A DNA stretch of 33,982 bases from a virus. A model generated the notes under the pieces. It worked only from the letters and a program-made list of their open reading frames with translations. It did no database searches and was not told the origin of the DNA. The position numbers were made by a program, and so were the translations under genes. The first letter of the stretch is position 1; each line of letters starts with the position of its first letter. The stretch is from positions 1 to 33,982 of the IMG/VR virus record IMGVR_UViG_3300042154_000160. One strand, given 5' to 3'. This document shows, piece after piece, positions 257-8,040 of this stretch.

Positions 257-2021
257 CCGGATCGGGCGCTGGCTGTTGCTGAGCCGCTTGGTCTGCCTTG
301 TCTTGCAGCGCCTTCATAGCCCGTTCAACAGCCGATTCCAGCCCCCTGCCAGCCTTAAACCGGCGCACTAGAAACAGCAGCATTTCTGAGGCCATTGGCA
401 GCGTTTCAGGCGCAGAGCCTACCATTGGCATGGCCTCACGCAAGAACAGCCCAATAGCCTGAACAGCCTCTTGTGCGCCCTGTTTCTCTGCCTGCTCGTC
501 AATCTGAGCCAAGCTGTCAGCCTCGACTGCAATGTGGAAGTCGCGGATCGTGCTGTTTGACAGCATCTGGATCGCAGCTTGCAGCATTTGCGGGTCTTGA
601 CCATCTGGCGTATTCATTACGCCCGACATTTCAACAATCAGCTCAGGCGGGTAAAACTTACAGATAACTTGCGCTTTGAGCTTAAAGATGTCTGTGGCAA
701 ACCGAGCCACTTCGCCCTGGCTGCTTCTTAGTCGCAGTGAGCCAAAGTTAGCCTTGAGCTGCTGTGCGCCCAAAGTCTCTTGCGCCTTAGATGCGCCGCG
801 CAGAATATCCGAAATGCCCATGATTTCGTAGATAGACTGCTTGACTTGCTCCCGCGCCGCATACAACTCGCGCAGCGTGATGATGATCTGCGAGGTGTCC
901 ATCATGTCGATAGCACCCTTCAGTCCACCCTTCTCGCTCATTGCCGCCCAGCTTGTCACAGGGAACATCTTGTTGTCAATGCCCTCTGTAAACAGGCGAC
1001 CCAGCTCCTTAAACTCAGCGTTAAACACACCAACCACCTTGCAGGCTTTGGTCAGCATGTAGATGCGCTGCGTCAGGTTGTCTAGCTCTTGCGCTTGGTC
1101 TTCGTATTCGCAGTAGTCAGGAACAGGGATCATCGTCCCCGTGGTTGTCGTAGCAATCAGGGGTTTAGGACAAGGAAAAAAGCCTTCTAGCTCAAGCGGA
1201 TCATCACGCTCATCAAGGGACAAGGGATAACCCTTAGCAACCCAGCACACCTTAAAAGTGCGCTTGTTCCAGATTTCAAAAACCTTGGCCTTTTTCTCAA
1301 AGGTGGTCTTGACTGTCTGCTGGTTCTTGCCATCGTCATCAGTGTTCTGGTCAGTCAGGCCGACATTCTTAAACACATCGCCAAAACGCTCCACACCCTC
1401 ATCGCGGGTCATGTAGACGGCACGGGCTACCCACCAAACCTCATCCCATGTACGGGCTGGGCTGTGCAGAAAGTCGCTCCAATAAACATAATCCACAGGG
1501 CTGTGGGCAGCGTCAATCGACTCGCCCGACTCTTGAACATTGGAGACTTGCGGTTCTTCAGCTTCCCCAAGCTCGACTTCGACTTCGGGCGCTGGCTGGC
1601 CTACGATTACAGGCTCGTAACGAATCCAAACTGTGCCTCGACCTGGCAACAGCCGGTCTTGCACAGCGTTGACCATTGCGCTGTCAAAGTCGTTAAATTG
1701 GGTTGTTTCATACTCGATCACGCGCTCCAGCATGGTGGAGGCCAAGCGTCCTACAGGGTCTTGATCCATGTATCGGCGTGATACTTCAGGCTTGGCTTGC
1801 CGCCCATACAGGGCAGGCATGAGCACTTGAATGTTTGACCACAGGATGTTGAACTTCATCCTTGGCATCTCTACCGCATCGCGCTCATCGCGGTAGCGCT
1901 TGATGATCTTATGGCCTCGCCTGTCCCACTTGTCAAAGACCTTTTCAGCGTTTGCTATCTGGTCGTGCCAATACGGGCCAGGGTCTTCGCCCTCGTAAGC
2001 GCCGGTGTCTTCGTATGCCAT
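1..2021 (-). CDS. Portal protein, N-terminal part (runs off the left edge)
   Basis: The frame opens with ATG at 2021 and stays open to base 1; it continues in frame at the right end to the stop at 33441. Counted across the join at base 256/33982 the protein is about 768 residues. It begins MAYEDTGAYEGEDPGPYWHD. The large portal size and the C-terminal helical tail resemble P22-type portals, the dodecameric ring at the packaging vertex through which DNA enters and leaves the capsid. After about residue 585 it becomes a long Gln/Met/Ala/Lys-rich coiled coil, like the barrel of P22 gp1. The ATG overlaps the TGA of the upstream small gene (ATGA), and it follows TerL in the usual terminase-portal order. 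It is the longest minus-strand frame here but is cut by the contig end, so it is easily missed. Confidence 0.85.
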   Translation of the reverse strand, partial: MAYEDTGAYEGEDPGPYWHDQIANAEKVFDKWDRRGHKIIKRYRDERDAVEMPRMKFNILWSNIQVLMPALYGRQAKPEVSRRYMDQDPVGRLASTMLERVIEYETTQFNDFDSAMVNAVQDRLLPGRGTVWIRYEPVIVGQPAPEVEVELGEAEEPQVSNVQESGESIDAAHSPVDYVYWSDFLHSPARTWDEVWWVARAVYMTRDEGVERFGDVFKNVGLTDQNTDDDGKNQQTVKTTFEKKAKVFEIWNKRTFKVCWVAKGYPLSLDERDDPLELEGFFPCPKPLIATTTTGTMIPVPDYCEYEDQAQELDNLTQRIYMLTKACKVVGVFNAEFKELGRLFTEGIDNKMFPVTSWAAMSEKGGLKGAIDMMDTSQIIITLRELYAAREQVKQSIYEIMGISDILRGASKAQETLGAQQLKANFGSLRLRSSQGEVARFATDIFKLKAQVICKFYPPELIVEMSGVMNTPDGQDPQMLQAAIQMLSNSTIRDFHIAVEADSLAQIDEQAEKQGAQEAVQAIGLFLREAMPMVGSAPETLPMASEMLLFLVRRFKAGRGLESAVERAMKALQDKADQAAQQQPAPDPEQIKMQALAQSEQMKTQAQVQSDQMKLQAEMQMAQARAEFDMQMQQAKTQADMQIAQMKAEFETVKQQNEMQIKAREMAGKEEYE

Positions 2022-5975: not shown

Positions 5976-6645
5976 CTTGCTCTTTCATGTTGATGAGGCC
6001 GTTTAGCATTCTGCTTTTAGTGCTGTGCCAAGGCTTGCTGTGGTCGCAGTCTTTGTAGTGGAAAAACTCCGGTATGCCCAGAGTGTAGTGCGCTATCTTG
6101 GCATTGGGGTTGTCTTGCTCACCCACCAGCACATTCCATTGTTTAGGCAGCTCACCAATTAGGGAGTCGGGCAGCCAGGTAAACCGATGCAAGTCACTGC
6201 CGCTGTGGTCATCAATGTAGTCTGGGGTTAACACATTGTTCCGAGGATGCTCACAATTCCACAGGATCAGGCTTGACCAGTTCTTTCTAGGGTAGTCCTC
6301 GTTCTTGGCCTCCATAGGCGTGTTAATGTACTTTTTGGGGTGCTTGGTCTTGTAGTCGTGTTTAACGACCTGTACGGCTTTTGTGGGGTCAAATAGCTTG
6401 TTCAGCTCATCTATGTCGCCCAGCATCAGCATATCTGAGGCATCCATGAAGATTGCCTTGCCCTTAAACCCTGTGAAGTACGGAACTAAGAATCTTTGAT
6501 AAATGAAGGCGTTTGTGCCGTCCCGCTGTTTGCCGTAGAAAGGCGTGATCGCTACTGGCTCTTTGGTTCGTTCAATCAGGCTTTGACAAAACACATGAAA
6601 GCCAACAGCCTCCCTTGGGTCGTAGCCTGCAAAGATGCGGATCAT
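5965..6645 (-). CDS. GT8-like glycosyltransferase
   Basis: The 226-residue protein begins MIRIFAGYDPREAVGFHVF, the opening beta strand and loop of a GT-A nucleotide-sugar fold. FIYQRFLVPYFTGFKGKAIFMDASDMLML (residues 48-76, read in two parts) ends with the DxD-like metal-binding segment DASD at 68-71, as in GT8-type enzymes that transfer a hexose from a UDP-sugar. Later IAHYTLGIPEFFHYKDCDHSKPW resembles the C-terminal His-containing GT8 end. ATG at 6645 overlaps the upstream stop (ATGA). The acceptor is unknown: a virion protein, modified DNA or host glycan are all possible. The phage carries two further glycan-type genes at 26539-29332. Confidence 0.8.
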   Translation of the reverse strand: MIRIFAGYDPREAVGFHVFCQSLIERTKEPVAITPFYGKQRDGTNAFIYQRFLVPYFTGFKGKAIFMDASDMLMLGDIDELNKLFDPTKAVQVVKHDYKTKHPKKYINTPMEAKNEDYPRKNWSSLILWNCEHPRNNVLTPDYIDDHSGSDLHRFTWLPDSLIGELPKQWNVLVGEQDNPNAKIAHYTLGIPEFFHYKDCDHSKPWHSTKSRMLNGLINMKEQDGD

Positions 6646-7007
6646 TTCAGTGTTAACTTGTACAGTGTCGAGTCGATCAGCGCAGCGATCTCATCAATGA
6701 TGTTCTGTAGCTGGCTGTCATCTGGCATTGCTTTTCTGTTTTTCTCTACATAGTCGCAAATGCTCTCAAGGTAGCGCACAGGGTCTTTAGCGTTGTGGAA
6801 GTTCTCTGGGAAAGTCTTGATCTTCTGGTACGCCCCAGAGTAAGCCTCTGCAAAGTTGTCCACCAGCTCAATGATTTCTGTGTAGTAGCCACCTAAAGCC
6901 ATGTGAACAGCAAAGGAGTCTGTGGATAAGTGCATGAAATGTGTGACTGTCCCACTGTGCAGCAGAGTGGAAATGAAGTCAGCAACATCTTTATCTTGAG
7001 CAGCCAT
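6642..7007 (-). CDS. DUF5856-like helical phage protein
   Basis: I place the start at ATG 7007 because AGGAG at 7020-7016 sits 8 bases upstream; a longer frame from 7082 has no such site and would run into the structured gap. The 121-residue protein begins MAAQDKDVADFISTLLHSGT and has VTHFMHLSTDSFAVHMALGGYY and IIELVDNFAEAYSGAYQKI, a spacing of His and acidic residues along helices that resembles the DUF5856 phage family and loosely Dps/ferritin-like bundles. Its function is unknown. The stop overlaps the glycosyltransferase start. It is the first gene after the non-coding gap, so it may start a transcript or be controlled by the upstream RNA structure. Confidence 0.7.
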   Translation of the reverse strand: MAAQDKDVADFISTLLHSGTVTHFMHLSTDSFAVHMALGGYYTEIIELVDNFAEAYSGAYQKIKTFPENFHNAKDPVRYLESICDYVEKNRKAMPDDSQLQNIIDEIAALIDSTLYKLTLK

Positions 7008-7082
7008 GATGAATTCTCCTTGTTTTATTTTAGCATTTCCCATAGGACAAGCCAAGCGGATGATATCCCCGACTTCAGCCAT

Positions 7083-7402
7083 CTTATTCAGACTACTGCA
7101 CCCATAAGGTCTAGGTTAGATTTCCAGAGCGCCCTCATATCGTTGGGCTAGCCGTCACATCACCACGTTTGCTCTGTTCCTGTGATACCCCTAGCAAGTT
7201 CACGCGCTGGCTTGTCAGTAAGCGCATCGCTTCACTCGATAGCCACCGCGACATGGGTGCATTGTTTCGTCATCAGCAATCGGCACTGGACGCAGAAAAG
7301 CCACTTTCTACTGCGTTCTGATGCGGCAACATCAGCCCCTTACGGGTAACGCATGAGAAAGTGGCCTCATGGTGTCCGGTGTTGCCGCACTTGACAAGAG
7401 CA
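7083..7402 (-). ncRNA. Candidate large structured non-coding RNA
   Basis: This is the only gene-free stretch of about 300 bases in the genome. It holds perfect inverted repeats: 7300-7309 with 7356-7365 (10 bp), nested 7312-7317 with 7348-7353, hairpin 7318-7323 with 7330-7335, and 7337-7339 with 7344-7346 whose minus-strand loop is GTAA, a GNRA tetraloop. The apical loop region 7322-7331 is also perfectly complementary over 10 bases to 7380-7389, allowing a pseudoknot or an alternative fold. Further in, 7097-7105 pairs with 7253-7261 (9 bp) around a nested 7208-7212/7241-7245 and 7226-7229/7237-7240 stem. The GNRA loop and the direction of the neighbours favour the minus strand. The family is unknown to me. 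Confidence 0.65.
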
Positions 7403-7714
7403 TCATACATCAGCCGGTAAAGGAATGTCAACAGGCCAAACAGATCGCAAAGAATTAACAGTCTTGCTGTGGGCTTTCTGCCACTTTTCCATTCTTTCTT
7501 CTTTGCTTAACTTTGATCCTTGGTCAATCTCATAGTGGCATCTAAGGCACAGGGCAGCGACCAGGTTGTCATCAGCCTTAATGCCCCTGCCTTTGTGACC
7601 GCCCCAATTGGTGTGGGCAGCTTGCACCATCTCACCAGACCCGCAAGATTGGCAGTCCAGACCGACCACCAGCTTTAGCAGCTTCTTGCTTCTGATGTAC
7701 TTGTGCTTTATCAC
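7403..7714 (-). CDS. HNH nuclease of YbcO/Ref-like type
   Basis: The 103-residue protein has a zinc-finger HNH core: CQSCGSG (first Cys pair), VQAAHTNWGGHKGRGIKADD (catalytic His region) and NLVAALCLRCHYEIDQGSK (second Cys pair with His). This arrangement is that of small phage recombination nucleases such as YbcO and Ref. The start is GTG at 7714, overlapping the upstream TGA (GTGA). Sitting in the same operon as RusA, it probably processes recombination intermediates. The structured gap begins directly after its stop. Confidence 0.8.
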   Translation of the reverse strand: MIKHKYIRSKKLLKLVVGLDCQSCGSGEMVQAAHTNWGGHKGRGIKADDNLVAALCLRCHYEIDQGSKLSKEERMEKWQKAHSKTVNSLRSVWPVDIPLPADV

Positions 7715-8040
7715 CTGTGCGCCCCGTCCTGTGTTCGATTGGTGGCCTCACGGCTGCGCCAGATTTCAATGTCAAGCCTTGCTGCCTCAATCTCCCATTT
7801 AAGGGTTTCTTCCTTTTCTACAGCCAGCGCCAAACCTTTGATGAGCTGCACATATTCAGGGTCAGCATAAGCCTCACGCTCCTGTGCGTTTGCAGCCTCT
7901 ACACCAGACTTTAAAGAGTCCTTCATCAGCATTGCCTTTTTAGACTTGCGAAACTCCTCAAGGTAGACCCGCTGGGCTTTGGCCTCGCCGTAGAGTGGTG
8001 CTCGATCCCTGATTGACTGTGCTGCGTCTTCGGGAATCAA
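7711..8040 (-). CDS. Conserved-looking helical phage protein, unknown function
   Basis: The 109-residue protein is highly charged and almost entirely helical (LYGEAKAQRVYLEEFRKSKK, IKGLALAVEKEETLKWEIEA). The start is TTG at 8040, which overlaps the previous stop as TTGA and is preceded by GAGG seven bases upstream, so a non-ATG start is plausible. The last codons overlap the HNH start. It lies between an unknown 209-aa protein and the HNH nuclease in the leftward recombination cluster. Coiled-coil character suggests a structural or accessory nucleic-acid role; nothing more specific can be said. Confidence 0.7.
   Translation of the reverse strand: MIPEDAAQSIRDRAPLYGEAKAQRVYLEEFRKSKKAMLMKDSLKSGVEAANAQEREAYADPEYVQLIKGLALAVEKEETLKWEIEAARLDIEIWRSREATNRTQDGAHR

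Follow-up and report, generated by a model that had tools for sequence, protein, structure and literature searches.

What occupies a geneless stretch in a phage genome whose genes are otherwise tightly packed on both strands? The window, by which we mean the whole phage record of 33,982 bases analysed here, contains a true gap at 7008-7402, flanked by an HNH endonuclease gene and a DUF5856 gene and without a convincing gene within. The first-pass annotation had recognized the geneless stretch but drew it too narrowly, at 7083-7402. The DUF5856 open reading frame had been listed from 7082, whereas an AAGGAG site together with an ATG at 7007 marks the actual gene start, which matches the start found in relatives. 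Here, we show using homologue alignment, pair counts and family searches that the gap holds a structured minus-strand RNA of about 351 nt (7046-7396, both ends inferred), and we regard it as near certain that this RNA represents a new family of large, pseudoknotted phage RNAs. The HNH gene (phrog_131; 7403-7714, minus strand, from a family search) lies upstream of the RNA as a non-obligatory neighbour, and the DUF5856 gene (phrog_858; 6642-7007, minus strand, from the ribosome-binding site in the sequence and family searches) lies downstream.

Judged by sequence matches, the RNA is carried by dozens of mostly unrelated bacterial viruses. In IMG/VR it is present at 134 loci, which comprise 74 distinct full copies in 52 clusters. 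Searches with the flanking HNH and DUF5856 proteins recovered about 18 close relatives in which the gap is 86-98% identical. Other relatives retain both genes and have a gap of only 8-66 nt or different elements in its place, and the RNA is therefore an optional insert at the HNH-DUF5856 locus. Distant copies were found by pattern scans with conserved core words, and a profile check confirmed the RNA in every locus newly added by the last scan. The invariance of the fetch words (CTGACAAGCCAGCGCG and AACTT..GGTATC.CAGGAAC) is partly a selection effect in the copies so fetched; most covarying positions fall outside these words or at their N positions. In a nucleotide search at E<=1, neither the 50,697 annotated phages nor the 72,556 plasmids contained a match to the window RNA, three divergent copies had none in the annotated phages, and the five matches from an 18-mer scan of GTDB genomes were all due to chance. 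Among sampled bacterial genomes from the order of a Comamonadaceae genome, one of 399 contains the RNA (locus L283), and none of 369 does so in a wider class sample. A literature search, with incomplete journal coverage, returned no earlier description of the RNA. One copy carries an internal deletion (L225, 3276-3547, minus strand): its two adjoining matched parts omit about 85 bases.

What is the evidence that these copies share a fold? The alignment comprises 52 sequences and a single structure of 76 pairs. In an unsupervised scan of all column pairs, twelve mutually compatible helices rank at the top, above weaker or conflicting candidates, and the structure consists of these helices together with an invariant thirteenth and one short helix; the copies have 13 helices in common, several of which cross as pseudoknots. 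Across the 52 sequences, 96.8% of 3913 cells are paired (shuffle mean 79.7%), two-sided compensatory change occurs in 59 of 76 pairs (shuffle mean 37) and compensatory cells number 641 (shuffle mean 178). The covariation score is 0.480, compared with 0.168 for shuffles and at most 0.109 for structures slid along the alignment, in which at most 45.3% of cells are paired. The shuffled control does not rid the comparison of shared ancestry; the slid control retains ancestry and still collapses. The suggestion, made from the window alone, of a large structured RNA with a pseudoknot is thus borne out by compensatory changes in 52 homologues, and the covariation among homologous gaps that had been named beforehand as a check lies far above both controls. 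Two further pairings proposed at that stage are perfect complements in the window but are not maintained elsewhere: the 9-bp long-range stem 7097-7105/7253-7261, whose pairs are kept in 40-98% of sequences, and the proposed "switch" 7281-7285/7383-7387, whose pairs are kept in 18-80%; both can form only in part and are unsupported.

The same alignment identifies the molecule and its strand. On the minus strand, G-U combinations at paired positions outnumber A-C combinations by 436 to 26, an excess that points to minus-strand RNA; the folding energy of the window's minus-strand RNA lies 3.2 SD below dinucleotide shuffles. This imbalance is as expected for RNA and makes it very improbable that the conserved element is a structured single-stranded DNA site such as a packaging, replication or recombination signal. 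Terminase genes often adjoin the element, as such a site might lead one to expect, but a promoter lies directly upstream of it and other copies are located near capsid-like or replication-type genes. We give practically no credence to a protein-coding gene or pseudogene mistaken for RNA. One frame across the core does stay open for at least 80 codons from stop to stop in 16 of 52 copies, yet the median is 50 codons, stops and indels differ among copies, no codon position stands out in its share of variable columns (18/31, 15/34 and 18/34) and compensatory pairing is massive. A conserved protein frame across the gap, the outcome that would have spoken for a gene, was looked for across the 52 copies and not found.

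Two domains make up the fold, with all strands given here on the minus strand. In domain 1, the first ~110 nt, the 5' end of the RNA pairs with the loop of a strong hairpin ending in a U-run. This hairpin (7297-7368) is built from P2 (7357-7368/7297-7308) and P2a (7348-7353/7312-7317) and closes with a conserved U-run; two-sided change is seen in 9 of 12 pairs of P2 and in all six of P2a. The 10-bp stem noticed initially at 7300-7309/7356-7365 is indeed perfect and is kept in the 52 homologues. Domain 2 is the conserved core, closed by pairing of a core loop with the 3' end of the RNA. It begins with P3 (7256-7259/7244-7247) and the crossing helix PK2 (7248-7250/7228-7230), which together span 7228-7259 and show two-sided change in 7 of 7 pairs in some copies. 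P4 (7223-7226/7203-7206; 7203-7226 overall) is invariant and alone uninformative, and its loop pairs with the RNA 3' end: the closing helix PK3 joins the core strand 7207-7216 to the 3' strand 7046-7055, the latter placed by pair counts, with two-sided change in 8 of 10 pairs and 98.3% of cells paired. Within P5 (7200-7202/7183-7185; 7183-7202 overall), the loop strand 7190-7194 pairs with 7111-7115 to form PK4 (two-sided change in 5 of 5 pairs, 99.2% paired). The column-pair scan and pair counts further place P6 (7171-7176/7125-7130), P7 (7145-7148/7131-7134) and the 5' strand of PK5 (7158-7165) within 7125-7176; the 3' strand of PK5 is at 7058-7065, and 7 of its 8 pairs change on both sides. 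The remaining helices, at 7076-7109, are P8 (7107-7109/7101-7103) and P9 (7095-7098/7076-7079 plus 7090-7093/7081-7084), the latter with two-sided change in 6 of 8 pairs and 99.3% paired.

The pseudoknot that joins the first bases of the RNA to the apical loop (PK1) behaves differently from the core. A 10-base loop complement between 7322-7331 and 7380-7389 had been noticed in the window; it is perfect there, and its partners are kept as a hypervariable, covarying pseudoknot. In the 25 sequences that can be aligned in this region, PK1 is 100% paired, with two-sided change in 7 of the 8 pairs counted, and in an alignment-free test 47 of 52 copies contain a perfect 6-14 nt complement at this position beyond that of shuffled loops. 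The PK1 sequence differs strongly among copies while the core is conserved, which is a puzzle for a cis-acting as well as for a trans-acting RNA. Self-recognition between copies through PK1 is one possibility.

Where does the RNA begin and end, and how is it transcribed? A sigma-70-like promoter (TTGACA-18-TATGAT, 11 of 12 matches) lies at 7402-7431 on the minus strand, within the 3' end of the HNH gene, and would place the transcription start near 7396, from which we take the 5' end. The 3' end, about 7046, follows from the closing helix PK3, as it is here that the RNA pairs over 10 bp with the core loop, and homology among copies stops at about 7042. Relatives with unrelated upstream DNA have -10 and -35 elements at the equivalent spot, including TTGACG/TATAAT in L183 and TTTACA-17-TAAAAT in L023. 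Promoter scores of at least 9 out of 12 occur in 19 of 52 copies, as opposed to 3% of shuffles, with a mean of 7.3 against 4.2. An intrinsic terminator is found just upstream of the RNA in 10 of 51 copies (0.2 expected), whereas none of the 51 has one within 150 nt beyond the RNA 3' end. Because of this asymmetry, the RNA is predicted to open a transcription unit and not to be closed off from the next gene, which frequently begins only tens of bases further on. The RNA also has a terminator-like element of its own: in 51 of 52 copies, four or more consecutive T come after the P2 hairpin (mean MFE -36 kcal/mol), so that a hairpin with U-run sits within the first ~110 nt. In several copies (L183, L220, L227, L231, L218, L002, L012 and L023), whose RNAs are otherwise placed differently, a small zinc-ribbon-like open reading frame (CxCG...CxxCGR/CxxCKR) reaches or overlaps the RNA promoter.

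Is the RNA related to a known family? Rfam 15 gave no match for the whole window at gathering score, none for 6950-7480 at E<=10, and no relevant match for seven divergent copies at E<=2, for which the one sub-threshold match was irrelevant and outside the RNA. The models for GOLLD and ROOL, HEARO, and Group I and II introns were not matched either, which leaves the kinships first proposed, with GOLLD, HEARO/omega RNA or a self-splicing relic, unsupported. A hammerhead motif (CTGATGACGAAAC) was considered and rejected, as the motif is lost in divergent copies and has no Rfam match. The family is new in the sense that no homologous family was found; if all large phage RNAs are taken as one kind, this RNA is a fresh addition to that loose kind. 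Like GOLLD and ROOL, large pseudoknotted RNAs of phages of which the GOLLD 3' part is conserved and the 5' part less so (PMC12286853), it is large, pseudoknotted and phage-borne. It differs in size, with ~350 nt compared with 659 nt for a ROOL example and often more than 800 nt for GOLLD, and in that the window contains no tRNA gene.

Structured RNAs near HNH genes also call to mind HEARO and the IscB omega RNA, and HNH genes are often found near our RNA. That it guides the neighbouring HNH nuclease, or is left over from a self-splicing intron, nevertheless seems hardly plausible to us, since Rfam yields no match to HEARO or introns, four copies (L012, L023, L254 and L255) have no adjacent HNH gene, related phages retain the HNH gene with a gap of only 8-66 nt, and promoter sequences lie directly upstream of the RNA. 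The HNH protein in the window is of the free-standing phrog_131 type with a weak DUF968 match, in agreement with the initial reading that it is not of IscB type, and it is replaceable: as other genes take its place in those four copies, we rejected it as a fixed partner.

Does the RNA have any other dedicated protein partner? The genes that follow it are TerS and TerL, an HNH gene and then terminase, or DUF5856 and then terminase; elsewhere they are a capsid-like gene preceded by a scaffold-like one, or replication-type genes preceded by a Cro-like one (names read from sequence, save where family searches were made). In the bacterial genome L283 the order is NinB-like gene, RNA, HNH, TerS, TerL. 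In L183, directly behind the RNA, we read from sequence a GIY-YIG nuclease whose C-terminal part is AP2-like, and another HNH nuclease (8-940 and 757-1250, minus strand). Each of 11 whole or nearly whole phage records has one RNA copy, and no protein family is common to all 11, the widest occurring in 7. Therefore no single phage-specific partner seems to be needed. Two other candidates were rejected, namely DUF5856, which like the HNH gene is missing beside many copies, and a 110-aa protein (7711-8040 in the window, minus strand), present in 7 of the 11 phages and not in all. The latter lacks a PHROG or Pfam match and sometimes directly adjoins the RNA.

What, then, might the RNA do? The best explanation overall, to which we give a little better than even standing, is a new pseudoknotted RNA family acting as a cis operon leader. 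We prefer this reading because the RNA opens a transcription unit and none of 51 copies has a terminator within 150 nt behind it; co-orientation with that gene is weak evidence, as phage operons are mostly one-directional. Transcription would start from the RNA's own promoter, and the RNA would form the 5' leader of the following operon and act in cis on the host machinery. Domain 1 would be a gate resembling an intrinsic terminator, and the folded core would decide whether polymerase, or a ribosome at the next start site, goes on. We consider this mechanism a little less likely than not and propose it tentatively. Three observations speak against it: the downstream genes differ widely, which is unusual for a regulator tuned to a single gene; known attenuators fall far short of the core in size; and the terminator-like hairpin precedes the core and so lies out of its reach during a single passage of polymerase.

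Given the variety of downstream genes and the size of the core, a trans-acting free RNA is nearly as likely, a serious contender although we would not bet on it. Such an "RNA moron" would be a structured, GOLLD/ROOL-like RNA with its own promoter. It would serve to take over the host or to counter its defences, either unaided (perhaps as an oligomer formed by the hypervariable pairing of 5' end and loop) or with a host protein. Its occurrence in unrelated phages with varied neighbours, as a single copy per phage and with no common protein, would suit this possibility, as would a hypervariable PK1 beside a conserved core and a size and pseudoknots like those of ornate phage RNAs (PMC12286853). 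However, a terminator behind the RNA in 0 of 51 copies, a next gene often starting within tens of bases and an intrinsic-terminator-like element inside the RNA are all difficult to reconcile with a free RNA.

If the cis leader reading holds, the closest mode of working is that of HK022 put, a phage RNA, placed behind a promoter, that needs no dedicated phage protein to act on host RNA polymerase (PMC9378689), and this precedent makes RNA-only action plausible. The leader would work by RNA-only antitermination as put does, but as a different and much larger RNA: put is ~70 nt with two stem-loops and two copies per genome (PMC9378689), in contrast to ~350 nt, 13 helices with pseudoknots and one copy in 11 of 11 genomes here, and the two are unrelated. 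More speculatively, and rather doubtfully, the RNA may be a ~350 nt RNA-only switch or antiterminator that moves among unrelated phages and controls the operon it heads via host RNA polymerase, with the hypervariable PK1 as a tag for copy specificity. The lambda pR' leader (6S RNA and tR') offers another comparison, with a promoter, a short leader, a terminator and late genes. Several copies of our RNA likewise lie at the early/late border, for example in L283. We know of no comparably large conserved core in the lambda leader, and the 11 carriers of our RNA that were compared have no phage protein in common that could act as Q.

To our knowledge few natural RNAs are this large and knotted, and many of these turned out to be novel types of machine or regulator. 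Although dozens of environmental phages carry the present RNA, Rfam has no entry for it and a nucleotide search of 50,697 annotated phage records did not recover it; the structure model is strong enough for immediate testing. Should the RNA indeed control whole operons without a phage protein, this would add a new way for phages to control host RNA polymerase.

Finally, a different element recurs in the HNH-DUF5856 gap of sister phages, in at least 120 IMG/VR contigs (among them L067, L100, L075, L104, L071, L056, L025, L135, L098 and L105). It consists of AACACGCATGG(G/A)GATT, then ~20-60 nt of hypervariable insert, then CAGTC(C/T)CCAGCCGTGTTGG, and a GTTGGT...ACCAAC module often comes next. 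Its hairpin gave no match in an Rfam search. In L056 (3879-3987) the same gap contains a tRNA-like module whose middle part is unusually long (Rfam tRNA, 39.3 bits). This module suggests that structured RNAs are exchanged for one another at the HNH-DUF5856 gap as at a hotspot.
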